In this document: positions 9,888-21,668 of the stretch, one piece after another
Layout of the letters: every line of letters starts with the position of its first letter
How positions within the stretch are numbered: position 1 is the first letter of the stretch
Source: a virus
IMG/VR virus record: IMGVR_UViG_3300044638_007655
Location: 1 to 23,106 of that record
Direction: 5' to 3' (one strand)
Length of the DNA stretch: 23,106 bases
Program-made: the position numbers and the translations under genes
The notes under the pieces: generated by a model
Databases searched by the model: none
Told to the model about the DNA's origin: nothing
What the model saw: the letters and a program-made list of their open reading frames with translations, nothing else

Positions 9888-12260
9888 ATGAACTTCAAAG
9901 ATCTTTTAAAGTTAACCGAAGCCTCCCGCACTGCCTCCGACTCCTTTAGGACTACTGGGGAAGCTATCGCTAAAGAAAAGGCTACGGGAAACGCAACATC
10001 CAATAAATCAAAGGATGCAGCCCGTAAAAGAGTTGAAAGATCAAAACAAATCCCAAGAGATAGAAAATCCAAAGGGGAATTGGTAAAAGAAGTTATTGCT
10101 GTAAAAACTGCTTCTGGTAGAATCCAATTAATTTTTAAAGACTCTTTTAATAAAGAGAACCATGTAAAATTAAATAAAGGAGATACATTAACGGAAGATG
10201 AAGCAAAGAGTTTTACAAATGATCCAAAATTTGAACAGACTCGTGCGTCCAAATTACTATTTGGTGAATTAAAGAAACAAGAAGACAAAGAAGAAAAAGC
10301 ACCAAAAACAGCTGAAAAAACTGGTGATAAACCAAAAGCAAAAGAAGGTGAGCAAGAAACCGCTGAAGCTCAACCACAGAAGGCTAAACGTCTATCTAAA
10401 GAAGAAATTCTAAAAGCAATGCAGGGTATGGATACCAATCAAATGGCATCTATGCCATTAGATTTACAACAAGAATACTTTAAGAGTATTAGAGCTCCTA
10501 AAAAGTCTGAAGAGTTTGATAATATTACATTTGAAGCACTTACCAATCAATTTGGTATTAATACTACCTCAAATTTACCATATAATCAACAAGTAATAAA
10601 TGCTTTAATTTTTGCTGCCAAATTAAAAGCTGGAGCAAGTGAACAAGAACTTAATGCATTGTTTTCTGGATCAGCTAACTCTTTAGATTTTACAAAAACT
10701 GCTTTTTTACAAGCCAATAAAATTCTATCACAAATTGGTGATGAATGTATTCAGAATCTATTATCAAGTATTGAATCTGGTAACTCTAGTATGTATTCTG
10801 ATGGTGTTCCAGAATTACAATGCGGTGAATATAAATTTAAGATTTCTGCTGGTGGTGAATTCACTATGAGTACAAATTCATTGAATCAAAGTGGAAAAAT
10901 TGTTAGAGGTATTATTGGTAATGCTTTGACCAAAACAATAATGGATCCAGAAATGGCAAAATCTGATCCATCTGTAAAGAAACTTTTAACAGATGTAGAA
11001 GCATCGAGTGAAAAGTTTTCACCACAATTGTTGCCCGATCAATCACTTCAAATGATTTTAAGTAATCCAGAACTGGTAACTAAATTTCAATCCTATGAGA
11101 TTTTTTCTCCATCAGGACAGAGCTTGGGTTTTGCCATAGATCAAAATGGAAATATAAATCCAGCAGTTTCTGTTTCAGCATATGAAGCTTCGATTAAAAA
11201 GTCTGGTAGTGAATTATTTAAAGGTGGAAAAAAGAATCCATTTTTAATTTCTTTGACCAAGAATATATTACAATCATCTTTACGCGGAGATGGTTTAGTT
11301 GATCCTAAAAATGCACCCAATCACATAATCACAACAAATGGTGTATTTCCAATGTCTGATGATTATATGCAGGAGATTGCTAAAACTGCCTCTATTAGTA
11401 TCAAACAGAATGAACAGGCATTAGATACTTCTAATATATCAACATATAAAAAATCCAGTATTCAAAATTTACAAAAATTTCGAACAGTTATTGAAGCAAC
11501 CGAAGACAAATCAAATCTGAAGAAACTTTTTATTGATAGAAAAACAATTGATCCACTGGGAATAATTGTTAAAAATTCAATAGACAATCTTTCTTTTGAT
11601 ATTAATGCTAGTTTATTACCTGGATTTAAACCAGAAGAGTTGAATTCTATAGAATACAATTATGTTACTATTGGAAAAAAGACAATTAAGATTCCAGTAA
11701 ATAAAACTGAAAAAGTTACTGATAAATTGTTAGGTGAAAATTACTTTGTTATTAATGAAATGCTTGTTGAATCTTTGACAAATAATTTCTTATTATCTAA
11801 ATTAAATAAAGTAAATATCATTTCTGATACTGAACGAAGTATGATTGAACATTATGGTCCTCTTCTATTAGAAGAAGATGATCTACGTGCGGGATGCCTG
11901 ATTCCAATTTTAAATAAAATTTACTCATATACAATCGAAAATACAGAATATCTTATTCCTTTGTTTGAAGATATTATTGCTGATAATTTAGAAGAAAAGT
12001 ATATTAGAAATTATAAAAAAGAATATAAGAATTATCACGGCAAACCAAAGCAGAAAAAAGAACGTGCATCAAGAACTGCAGCACGTGAACTTATGATCAA
12101 AAAGGGTGTTGTAAAAAAGGGATCTAAAAAGGATATTGATCATAAAAATGCTATTCGTAATGGTGGTTCTAACAGTGTAAAGAATTTACGTGTTAGAGAT
12201 CGTTCTGAAAACCGAGCCGATAATGGTCATCATAAAGGTGAAACCCAAAACAGGAAATGA
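9888..12260 (+). CDS. Large protein with capsid-targeting-like leader and C-terminal HNH-like domain
   Basis: A 790-residue protein, probably packed in the phage head. Its N-terminus, MNFKDLLKLTEA, resembles the T4 capsid-targeting sequence and has a prohead-protease site LTE11|A12. Next come a basic segment (40-65), a Lys/Glu/Ala-rich linker (about 125-170) and a long ordered region (about 170-690) of no family I recognise. The last 85 residues look like a phage HNH-type domain: a basic lead (RASRTAARELMIKKG), then DIDHKNAI with H752, GGSNSVKNLRV with N766 and RSENRAD with N775, an H-N-N arrangement. One reading is a nuclease delivered with the DNA; another is a structural protein with a borrowed DNA-binding domain. 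It overlaps the next gene's region by the TGA at 12258-12260. Confidence 0.75.
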   Translation: MNFKDLLKLTEASRTASDSFRTTGEAIAKEKATGNATSNKSKDAARKRVERSKQIPRDRKSKGELVKEVIAVKTASGRIQLIFKDSFNKENHVKLNKGDTLTEDEAKSFTNDPKFEQTRASKLLFGELKKQEDKEEKAPKTAEKTGDKPKAKEGEQETAEAQPQKAKRLSKEEILKAMQGMDTNQMASMPLDLQQEYFKSIRAPKKSEEFDNITFEALTNQFGINTTSNLPYNQQVINALIFAAKLKAGASEQELNALFSGSANSLDFTKTAFLQANKILSQIGDECIQNLLSSIESGNSSMYSDGVPELQCGEYKFKISAGGEFTMSTNSLNQSGKIVRGIIGNALTKTIMDPEMAKSDPSVKKLLTDVEASSEKFSPQLLPDQSLQMILSNPELVTKFQSYEIFSPSGQSLGFAIDQNGNINPAVSVSAYEASIKKSGSELFKGGKKNPFLISLTKNILQSSLRGDGLVDPKNAPNHIITTNGVFPMSDDYMQEIAKTASISIKQNEQALDTSNISTYKKSSIQNLQKFRTVIEATEDKSNLKKLFIDRKTIDPLGIIVKNSIDNLSFDINASLLPGFKPEELNSIEYNYVTIGKKTIKIPVNKTEKVTDKLLGENYFVINEMLVESLTNNFLLSKLNKVNIISDTERSMIEHYGPLLLEEDDLRAGCLIPILNKIYSYTIENTEYLIPLFEDIIADNLEEKYIRNYKKEYKNYHGKPKQKKERASRTAARELMIKKGVVKKGSKKDIDHKNAIRNGGSNSVKNLRVRDRSENRADNGHHKGETQNRK

Positions 12261-19662: not shown

Positions 19663-19690
19663 AATATAATGTATAAATAGTATTATGCAA
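19663..19690 (-). promoter_or_regulatory. Possible weak sigma70-like promoter
   Basis: Minus strand TTGCAT (19685-19690), 16 bases, TATATT (19663-19668), 14 bases before the ATG at 19648. The spacing agrees with the other promoters, but the -35 box matches consensus at only three positions. Confidence 0.3.
19672..19679 (+). promoter_or_regulatory. Perfect late promoter box TATAAATA, ATG 5 bases downstream
   Basis: TATAAATA then 5 bases then the ATG at 19685. A second in-frame ATG follows at 19694. No Shine-Dalgarno sequence between box and gene. Confidence 0.75.
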
Positions 19691-20386
19691 GAAATGAATG
19701 AAGGAAATGTTTATAACATGCAGGATGTTTTTGGTTCAAAACTAAATTCTTCCGCTTTAGGCATTAAAAAAGTCAATAAAGAAATCAAATCTCAATTATT
19801 TGATTCTTTTAAACGTAATAAAATTAATAATAAAAAAGAAATAGTAAAAAAAACTTTTACTAATATTTTTGAAGCAGATGCACCACCTGTACTAGCTCCG
19901 GGTAAAGGTCAAGAAGCAGTTGGTAATGTATTTCCACCATTAACTGCAGATAACAAAACAGGTGCTGGAGTTGTTGTTGTAACAAATCCGGCAGGAACAT
20001 CAACAGACAGAGCAAGTTTTGGTATGGGATTTGAACTAGCTCCAACTTTAACAGCTTCAGTACAACAGTTTGTCAATCAATATGCTGATAAATACGATAA
20101 CAGTGCGGTAAGTAGAGATTATCAGGCAAAAGAACAAGCTAAGTTCAATTTACCACCAGAAGATAAAATTGTAACATGGCAAACAATGAATAATGCTGTT
20201 GCCAATCATCTTAATCAAAATTTAAAACAATTGTTACAAAAATATAATCTATATGTGTCAGATGAACAATCAGGTCGTGCAGCACCAAATGTTCCAACAG
20301 AAACATATCATTACGATCAATATTCTCGACAAGTTTATAAAATTAAAAACTATAATGACAATAGCTCTAATGGAAACAACACATGA
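19685..20386 (+). CDS. Late protein with possible internal prohead-protease site
   Basis: Function unknown; 233 residues. The first 60 residues are basic and Asn/Lys-rich. They end in VKKTFTNIFEADAPP, where IFE|A could be a T4-type cleavage site and TFTNIFE resembles a displaced capsid-targeting sequence. The middle is Gly/Pro/Val-rich and probably disordered, and then a helical part follows (LTASVQQFVNQYADKYDN, WQTMNNAVANHLNQNLKQLLQKY). The C-terminus is polar (NYNDNSSNGNN). It is first in a plus-strand late operon; its TGA overlaps the next ATG. M4 at 19694 is an alternative start. Confidence 0.65.
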   Translation: MQEMNEGNVYNMQDVFGSKLNSSALGIKKVNKEIKSQLFDSFKRNKINNKKEIVKKTFTNIFEADAPPVLAPGKGQEAVGNVFPPLTADNKTGAGVVVVTNPAGTSTDRASFGMGFELAPTLTASVQQFVNQYADKYDNSAVSRDYQAKEQAKFNLPPEDKIVTWQTMNNAVANHLNQNLKQLLQKYNLYVSDEQSGRAAPNVPTETYHYDQYSRQVYKIKNYNDNSSNGNNT

Positions 20387-20775
20387 AAAAACCAATTTTA
20401 TCTTTTAAAGCTTTTATGAATGAAGAATTGGCATTAGTTGGTCCTCCAGGTGGACCTGGAATGCCTCAGATGGGAATGCCTCCGGGTGGGATGCCAGCTC
20501 CTGGTATTCCTTCTAAAAAAGGTAAAAAGGGTATGAAGAGTATGCCACAACAACCCCAAATGGATCCTTTAAAACCACAACCTTATCAGGGGTTTACTAA
20601 TACACCAGAAACCGAAGCAAGACTTAGAAATTTAATTGTAACTCAGTTTGATGATCCTGATACTGCAGAAGAAGAAATTCCACAAGATGCTAAATGGCAG
20701 ACTTTAAATACTTCTCAAGGAAATGCATATCAACGAGAAGTTATGAAACTAAAAGCTTCTCACGGAATGCTATAA
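20383..20775 (+). CDS. Pro/Met-rich late protein with capsid-targeting-like leader
   Basis: A 130-residue protein. The start, MKKPILSFKAFMNEELA, contains the SFKAFMNE core of a capsid-targeting-like leader, with MNE14|E15 as a less ideal cleavage site. Residues 17-45 are a Gly/Pro/Met repeat region (GPPGGPGMPQMGMPPGGMP) followed by a basic patch (KKGKKGMK). The C-terminal 60 residues are helical (TEARLRNLIVTQFDDPD, AYQREVMKLKASHGML). No enzyme motif. The start overlaps the upstream stop (ATGA) and GGAAA lies upstream, as expected for an internal operon gene. Confidence 0.65.
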   Translation: MKKPILSFKAFMNEELALVGPPGGPGMPQMGMPPGGMPAPGIPSKKGKKGMKSMPQQPQMDPLKPQPYQGFTNTPETEARLRNLIVTQFDDPDTAEEEIPQDAKWQTLNTSQGNAYQREVMKLKASHGML

Positions 20776-20792
20776 TAAATTAAGTTTATTAT
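20772..20792. repeat. Short AT inverted repeat over the next start codon
   Basis: ATAATAAA, 5 bases, TTTATTAT is a perfect 8-bp inverted repeat that includes the stop (20773-20775) of one gene and the first bases of the ATG at 20791 of the next. It contains AATAAATT, a degenerate late box. A hairpin of only A-T pairs would be weak. Confidence 0.5.
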
Positions 20793-21660
20793 GATTGTAT
20801 ACAAAGAAAAAAAATGGTTAGTAACTGACTCTACTGGTAAAAAGGTATTGGGGACTCACTCATCTAAAAATAAAGCTATTAAACAATTGGCTGCAATTGA
20901 AATTTCAAAAAATAGCCGTAAAGAGGTTAGAGAATCTAAAATGCTTTCTTTTAAAGAATTTTTAAAAGAAAATACTTCTTCAACTCTTGAATACCATAAT
21001 GAACTAAATCCAAAGATTTGGGATGGTATGCAATTAAGAAAAGATATTAAATCAAAACTTTTAGATATTGGACGTACTTGGGTAGAGTGGGTTGGATTAC
21101 CAGAAAGTGCGGTAGAAGATTATATTCTAGTTGGTGGTAATGCAAGTTACGCATATACATCATATTCAGATATTGATCTTCACATTTTAGTTGATAAAAG
21201 AAAAATTGATAACTGCCCAAATCTAATAGATGACTATCTTAAAGATAAGAAACAACTTTGGTCACTTACACACGATATAACCATTCTAGGACATGATGTA
21301 GAAGTATATGCTCAAGACATCAAAGAGCCTGTGCCACCTGACCAGGGGGCTTATAGCCTTACTAGCGACCAATGGATCACTGAGCCTAAGCAACAAGAAG
21401 TAAATTTAGAAGATCCAAGTATTGAAAAGAAGGTCAACGAATATATTGAAAAAATTGATGATTTAATTTCATCAAATGCGGAAGATGAATCTTTTGATAA
21501 ACTCAAAGAAAAACTTAGAAATATGAGAAGTTCTGGACTCAAAAAGTCTGGAGAAGTGAGTATTGAGAATATGGTATTCAAGGAACTTCGAAATAGAGGT
21601 TACTTGGATAAAATGAATGCGTACATTAAATCAACACAGGATAAACGATTAAGTTTATAA
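20791..21660 (+). CDS. Nucleotidyltransferase-fold protein with an internal capsid-targeting-like leader
   Basis: Predicted nucleotidyltransferase, perhaps packaged in the head. Residues 1-40 form a small module (KKWLVTDSTGKKVLGTHSS then KAIKQLAAIEISK) that I recall in other phage proteins. Residue 51 is a methionine followed by LSFKEFLKE60|N61, almost a textbook T4-type capsid-targeting sequence. The catalytic part follows: YILVGGNASYAYTSYSDIDLHILVD with G115-G116, S119 and the metal pair D127-x-D129, and a likely third acid in DVEVYAQD (D169 or E171). The C-terminal 80 residues are helical and charged. An internal start at 20941 (GAGA 8 bases upstream) would make a 239-residue form with the leader at its N-terminus. 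Substrate unknown: tRNA, protein or nucleotide are all possible. Confidence 0.75.
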   Translation: MIVYKEKKWLVTDSTGKKVLGTHSSKNKAIKQLAAIEISKNSRKEVRESKMLSFKEFLKENTSSTLEYHNELNPKIWDGMQLRKDIKSKLLDIGRTWVEWVGLPESAVEDYILVGGNASYAYTSYSDIDLHILVDKRKIDNCPNLIDDYLKDKKQLWSLTHDITILGHDVEVYAQDIKEPVPPDQGAYSLTSDQWITEPKQQEVNLEDPSIEKKVNEYIEKIDDLISSNAEDESFDKLKEKLRNMRSSGLKKSGEVSIENMVFKELRNRGYLDKMNAYIKSTQDKRLSL

Positions 21661-21663
21661 ATA
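21656..21663 (+). promoter_or_regulatory. Perfect late promoter box TATAAATA overlapping a stop, ATG 5 bases downstream
   Basis: TATAAATA contains the nucleotidyltransferase stop TAA (21658-21660) and is followed after 5 bases by the ATG at 21669. Confidence 0.75.
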
Positions 21664-21668
21664 ATAAT

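Follow-up and report, generated by a model that had tools for sequence, protein, structure and literature searches.

The internal proteins IPI–IPIII of bacteriophage T4 carry a ten-residue leader with an aromatic residue at positions 4 and 7, a hydrophobic residue at position 8 and glutamate at position 10. For IPIII the first ten residues are enough for packaging, and within the T4 capsid-targeting sequence (CTS) positions 4 and 7 serve targeting and positions 8 and 10 serve processing (PMC9026906). Packaged enzymes are already known, such as T4 Alt, a head-core enzyme whose N-terminal propeptide is cut by gp21 and which is ejected and acts at once (PMC9026906); a nucleotidyltransferase (NTase) cargo would be an added variant. 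In the literature searched, whose coverage is incomplete, no description was found of a head-packaged Pol-beta-type NTase, and a packaged takeover enzyme transferring nucleoside monophosphates would be a class without a phage description there. Here, in a stretch of 23,106 nucleotides (the window) from a T4-related water phage, we analyzed an ORF whose product combines, in this order, a 43-residue mini-domain, a T4-type leader and a Pol-beta-type NTase domain (Table 1). The reading that we favor, with a probability of about two in three, is that of a late-expressed, head-packaged, protease-processed, and injected NTase; it starts from direct observations of the layout, the invariant acids, the predicted fold, the enrichment of leaders, the late promoters of fused relatives and, in the literature, an orthologue in virions, from which we infer the cleavage, ejection, catalysis, and target.

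Table 1. Features of the NTase locus, in positions of the window
Feature	Position	Strand	Remarks
T4-type late promoter box TATAAATA	19672..19679	+	5 nt before ATG 19685
Upstream gene; product with shifted leader of the NTase-leader type (MKKPILSFKAFMNEE)	20383..20775	+	
NTase ORF	20791..21660	+	289 aa, stop included; phrog_36119, E 8e-79
N-terminal 43-residue module	20791..20919	+	predicted strand-strand-strand-helix; mini-domain widespread among phages
CTS MLSFKEFLKE, residues 51-60	20941..20970	+	in-frame ATG at 20941
Predicted prohead-protease site E60/N61 (L-x-E cut)	20968..20973	+	E60 in 30/30; T4 gp21 consensus
NTase palm region, residues 65-202	20983..21396	+	AF2, Foldseek, VIA-align, PF01909
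Catalytic motif GGNASYAYTSYSDID, residues 115-129 (D127, D129)	21133..21177	+	GGN, D, D invariant in 55 relatives
E171, third carboxylate	21301..21303	+	invariant; alignment of relatives
C-terminal helical domain, residues 205-289	21403..21657	+	highly conserved, GE..EN..FKELRN.GY

Both the limits of the ORF and the ATG of M51, followed by LSFKEFLKE, are those given in the preliminary description, which had also placed a separate module before the leader. The two parts do belong to different PHROG families, since residues 6-44 match phrog_3684 (E 8.8e-13) and residues 54-289 match phrog_36119, the sequence family of the NTase part, which carries no functional assignment. In the AlphaFold2 model of the whole protein, the module (residues 1-48) and a confidently predicted NTase domain are joined by a linker (residues 42-62, pLDDT <50) that turns helical for a short stretch at the leader. 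The family is broad, with at least 429 related stretches; NCBIfam gave no match for the ORF product, the plasmid search gave none to the NTase family, and among 84,980 cellular genomes one Cyanobium MAG contig, possibly phage, matched. Elsewhere in the window, several long ORFs between 4656 and 13159 have no Pfam match above the cut-off, among them a 790-residue ORF (9888-12260) that matches an unnamed PHROG at its C-terminus only.

The core of the NTase domain reads G115-G116-N117-A118-S119 ... S126-D127-I-D129, and G115, G116, N117, D127, D129, and E171 are invariant in alignments of 32 and of 55 phage relatives, the latter with identities to the window protein down to ~48%. From the GG-x2-S...DxD core proposed earlier, the glycine pair and both aspartates held, the latter being kept in 55/55 relatives, but the serine did not, as position 119 is asparagine in most relatives and the conserved motif is GGNA(N/S)YxYTxxSDxD. 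The sequence features of a Pol-beta-type NTase (G-G loop, D-x-D, and third carboxylate) are thus present. The PF01909 profile gives the window protein 15.5 bits against a cut-off of 21 and matches 31/32 family members (best E 2e-4). When the NTase domain was modeled alone with the 55 relatives, AlphaFold2 reached a pLDDT of 90 and a pTM of 0.81, and Foldseek placed at the top the spectinomycin adenylyltransferase AAD(9) (E 3e-4, probability 0.98) and the CD-NTase CdnE (E 3e-4), followed by MNT antitoxins and AadA, the matches being mainly NTases. VIA-align returned Z values of at most 7.0 for minimal NTases (2rff, Z 7.0) and of ~6 for CD-NTases and AadA, with CD-NTases, MNT, and AadA/ANT all within ~1-2 Z units of one another; because Z does not exceed 7.0, the scores support the palm and do not single out one NTase subfamily. 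The structure prediction suggested in the preliminary description yielded an NTase palm plus a helical bundle as the predicted fold, with NTases as the best PDB matches at moderate scores. A chemistry different from that of T4 Alt had also been anticipated, and Pfam and fold searches gave NTase only and no ADP-ribosyltransferase domain. Comparison of the family profile with PDB sequences produced weak ICT1 and MNT matches, which are probably due to chance. Three bigger phage proteins in BFVD (A0A6J5M1C6, A0A6J5N8A7, and A0A6J5P8X5) have the same NTase fold together with amidoligase and LETM1-like regions.

Counted from M51, the leader presents F4, F7, L8, and E10, at the positions defined in T4. 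N-terminal leaders of this type, counted as aromatic-xx-hydrophobic-hydrophobic-x-E at the protein start, were found 27 times in seven related contigs against 1.59 expected (Poisson P 5e-24), on 20 different protein bodies and with the aromatic residue exactly at position 4 in 26/27, as in T4. This pattern indicates that the T4-type capsid-targeting leader, as first proposed, is real and more than chance. The CTS of T4 works at the extreme N-terminus, whereas that of the window protein sits behind 50 residues and is not the N-terminus of the primary product; a strict N-terminal scan gave no match in the window, because the NTase leader is internal and that of the 20383 product is shifted. The leader is N-terminal in two sister phages (L004 and L005) and in most non-fused relatives, which outside the subclade of the window open with MKTFGEFINE, MFSFKNFIAE, MQGFRQFLIE, and similar sequences. 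In several marine lineages the leaders are shortened, some marine relatives lacking the cleavage half (MKTFKELRLTLRYH), and no clear L-x-E leader is present in the distant homologues from Lak phages and further huge phages. In the related genome G005 (47771-51728, locus L109), five adjacent genes encode products that all carry the leader, e.g., MKNFKQFIIE, and form a probable cassette of packaged proteins. G001 (172833 bases, locus L053), a large phage, has the NTase with the good leader MQGFRQFLIE and gave no match to the S77 protease or Gp23.

The virion association postulated in the preliminary description is supported by the cyanophage S-CREM2, because mass spectrometry of its virions detected ORF156 (126012-126725), an orthologue with 49.8% identity over residues 65-289 (~78% of the protein). 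In the proteome of CsCl-purified particles it is named hypothetical and was identified by six unique peptides covering 15.2% of its sequence (PMC10665884, Table 3). ORF156 has a short leader only (MKKLISE), and other members of that proteome open with MKDFDSFLEE (SAM hydrolase), MKRFDAFLTE (kinase), and MKNFSSFLTE (cytidylyltransferase); ORF13 and ORF136 also bear leaders, and all annotated S-CREM2 proteins for which our analysis identified a strict N-terminal leader are in the virion proteome. Leader-type N-termini occur in 6/26 nonstructural or unknown virion proteins, ORF156 itself included, against 3/101 undetected ones, some small undetected ORFs being omitted (p 0.002). A Cas9-like nuclease in the same virions (ORF12, locus L218, 7704-10313) has the leader LRFASFMAEAA behind ~17 residues, and by its sequence is a precedent for an internal leader. 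The authors of the proteome warn that abundant nonstructural proteins in virion preparations may be carry-over (PMC10665884), and some members of the NTase family have decayed leaders, as would fit an ordinary late cytoplasmic NTase of RNA, tRNA, or metabolites that contaminates virion preparations and whose leader is a remnant or a helix arisen by chance. This explanation is unlikely given the enrichment of leaders in the related contigs, the retention of E60 in every fused relative, and the association of the leader with the set of S-CREM2 proteins detected by mass spectrometry. The presence of an orthologue in virions would also suit a structural or scaffold-associated head protein with an NTase fold that is no longer catalytic, but neither the GGN loop nor any of the three carboxylates varies among the 55 proteins, whose identities to the window protein go down to ~48%; furthermore, just a minor share of the searched phage records contains the family, which means that the NTase is not a required head part, and we regard such a role as highly improbable. 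With regard to the packaging machinery, the S77 prohead protease was found in 7/16 related records, many of the remaining ones being fragments, and gp23 matches are also present among them; gp21 and gp23 are absent from the window contig, itself a fragment. The accessible part of the source on Maribacter phage Molly reports no virion mass spectrometry.

How the leader would come to act from an internal position can be approached through the fused relatives, 30 of which were compared. Glu60 is kept in 30/30, Phe54 and Leu58 in 25/30 each, and M51 in only 1/30, while the positions between and after 54, 58, and 60 vary, a pattern that fits an L-x-E protease site and not a conserved internal start. 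Protease cleavage after FLKE would therefore be the better explanation of the conservation, and an internal start is unneeded, since proteolysis at E60 would yield the same mature enzyme. The internal start at 20941 put forward in the preliminary description was accordingly rejected as a general, conserved role of M51, although initiation there is possible in the window phage itself, because this ATG is the sole start available to the module-less sister phages L004 and L005. It is conceivable that the window phage makes two products, the fusion from ATG20791 and a short form from ATG20941, and that only the short form is packaged: M51 puts the leader in the exact T4 register, L004 and L005, from which the module has been lost, offer no further in-frame ATG, GTG, or TTG upstream, and an internal start, at Met45, is known from T4 gp21 (PMC9026906). 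We consider this rather unlikely, as the motif is kept in the fused relatives even where the start codon is not, so that initiation cannot be its general role, and ATG20941 has no well-spaced Shine-Dalgarno sequence (a GAGG lies 14 nt upstream); ATG20791 has none either.

The distribution of the module indicates that the fusion is ancestral to the subclade of the window and that its loss in L004/L005 was a separate event from that in L007; in L004 and L005, a deletion leaves the counterpart of ATG20941 as the sole start and the leader thereby N-terminal. The best matches of the module are phage mini-proteins, and in other phages its homologues are stand-alone proteins of 52-65 residues in which it lies directly behind a leader: MKTYIEFINE in Yersinia T4-like phages, MKSFSDYLNE in LIMEstone1, MKTFDNFLSE in IME250, and the shorter MKYSDLITE in RaK2. 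Since these stand-alone proteins carry it behind the same type of leader, the module is itself likely to be packaged cargo. In the window protein the module precedes the leader, and cleavage would therefore free the enzyme of both. Stand-alone modules were observed at four loci (L127, L128, L129, and L130) of Yersinia T4-like, RaK2-like, and Ackermannviridae phages. PADLOC assigned PDC-S16 to the module only, with an E of 0.008 that is too weak for use. In phage Cr30 the NTase is a separate gene starting with MRKFSQLLED; a tblastn match to the module upstream of it proved spurious, as that region encodes a lytic enzyme in a different frame.

Late expression is suggested by promoter boxes of the T4 type. 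The NTase gene in the window has no late box of its own, and the box at 19672..19679 probably drives a three-gene unit (19685-20383-20791), an operon proposed from gene spacing. In most fused relatives, a NATAAATA box lies directly before the module start. In the clade of the window, this box precedes the ATG by 5 nt in 42 cases, by 7 nt in 21, rarely by 6 nt (4 cases), and never by 4 or 8 nt, with about 2 at other distances, counts in which some contigs are near-copies of each other. Boxes at these two spacings were seen in the window's clade only; in the window they occur at 19672-19684, at 21656-21668, and upstream of 9888, and they were also seen in G002, G005, G006, G007, and others. Genes with the NATAAATA box rarely have a Shine-Dalgarno sequence (two overlaps). 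Because in T4 the late box is positioned roughly one helical turn ahead of the transcription start (PMC2988020), the late mRNAs may be leaderless.

Taken as a mechanism, the favored reading is that the NTase would be expressed late and enter the prohead core by means of its CTS, where a T4 gp21-type prohead protease would cut after E60 and remove the fused module together with the leader, a piece of 60 residues that is within the 7-65 residue range of T4. The mature NTase would then stay in the head with the DNA, be injected at infection, and attach a nucleoside monophosphate to a target from the host or the incoming phage, whether protein, RNA, or small molecule. A T4 head-loading tag together with a relative in particles makes it probable that the enzyme enters with the DNA and works on the host as soon as infection begins; the Alt-like action on a host target upon entry, as envisaged at the outset, may follow by analogy. 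MNT proteins AMPylate HEPN-type toxins, and MenT toxins modify tRNA ends. With these as candidate models, AMPylation of a HEPN-type toxin (MNT-like) or tRNA-end modification (MenT-like), it is a tentative possibility that the NTase preloaded by T4-like aquatic phages tags a component of host defense or translation on injection and so disarms or takes over the cell ahead of all phage gene expression. A virion protein that had escaped notice in a wide phage family thus becomes a probable injected enzyme, nucleotidyl transfer would join the chemistries known to be packaged with T4-type leaders, and an early role in infection is testable in cultured cyanophages such as S-CREM2. Our results also suggest that the leader is usable as a signature for listing the packaged effectors of uncultured T4-like phages.

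Among the known systems, AAD(9)/AadA, the MNT antitoxins, and the CD-NTases are the best fold matches and share the Pol-beta-type palm with the ORF product, the AadA alignments extending into the helical domain, but identities are 10-16% with Z of 7 or less, and these proteins have a GS loop and no leader, in contrast to the GGN loop and leader found here. The SAM hydrolase, APH/ChoK kinase, and NMNAT-like cytidylyltransferase of S-CREM2 share the leader type with the NTase family and the virion proteome with ORF156, and belong to other enzyme families than the NTase. T4 IPI–IPIII have the same ten-residue leader pattern as the window protein, in which, however, 50 fused residues precede it and an enzyme is the presumed cargo. 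T4 Alt resembles the proposed route of the NTase in head-core packaging, gp21 processing, and ejection, and differs in its unrelated fold and chemistry: where Alt ADP-ribosylates, the protein of the window has an NTase palm with two aspartates and a glutamate.
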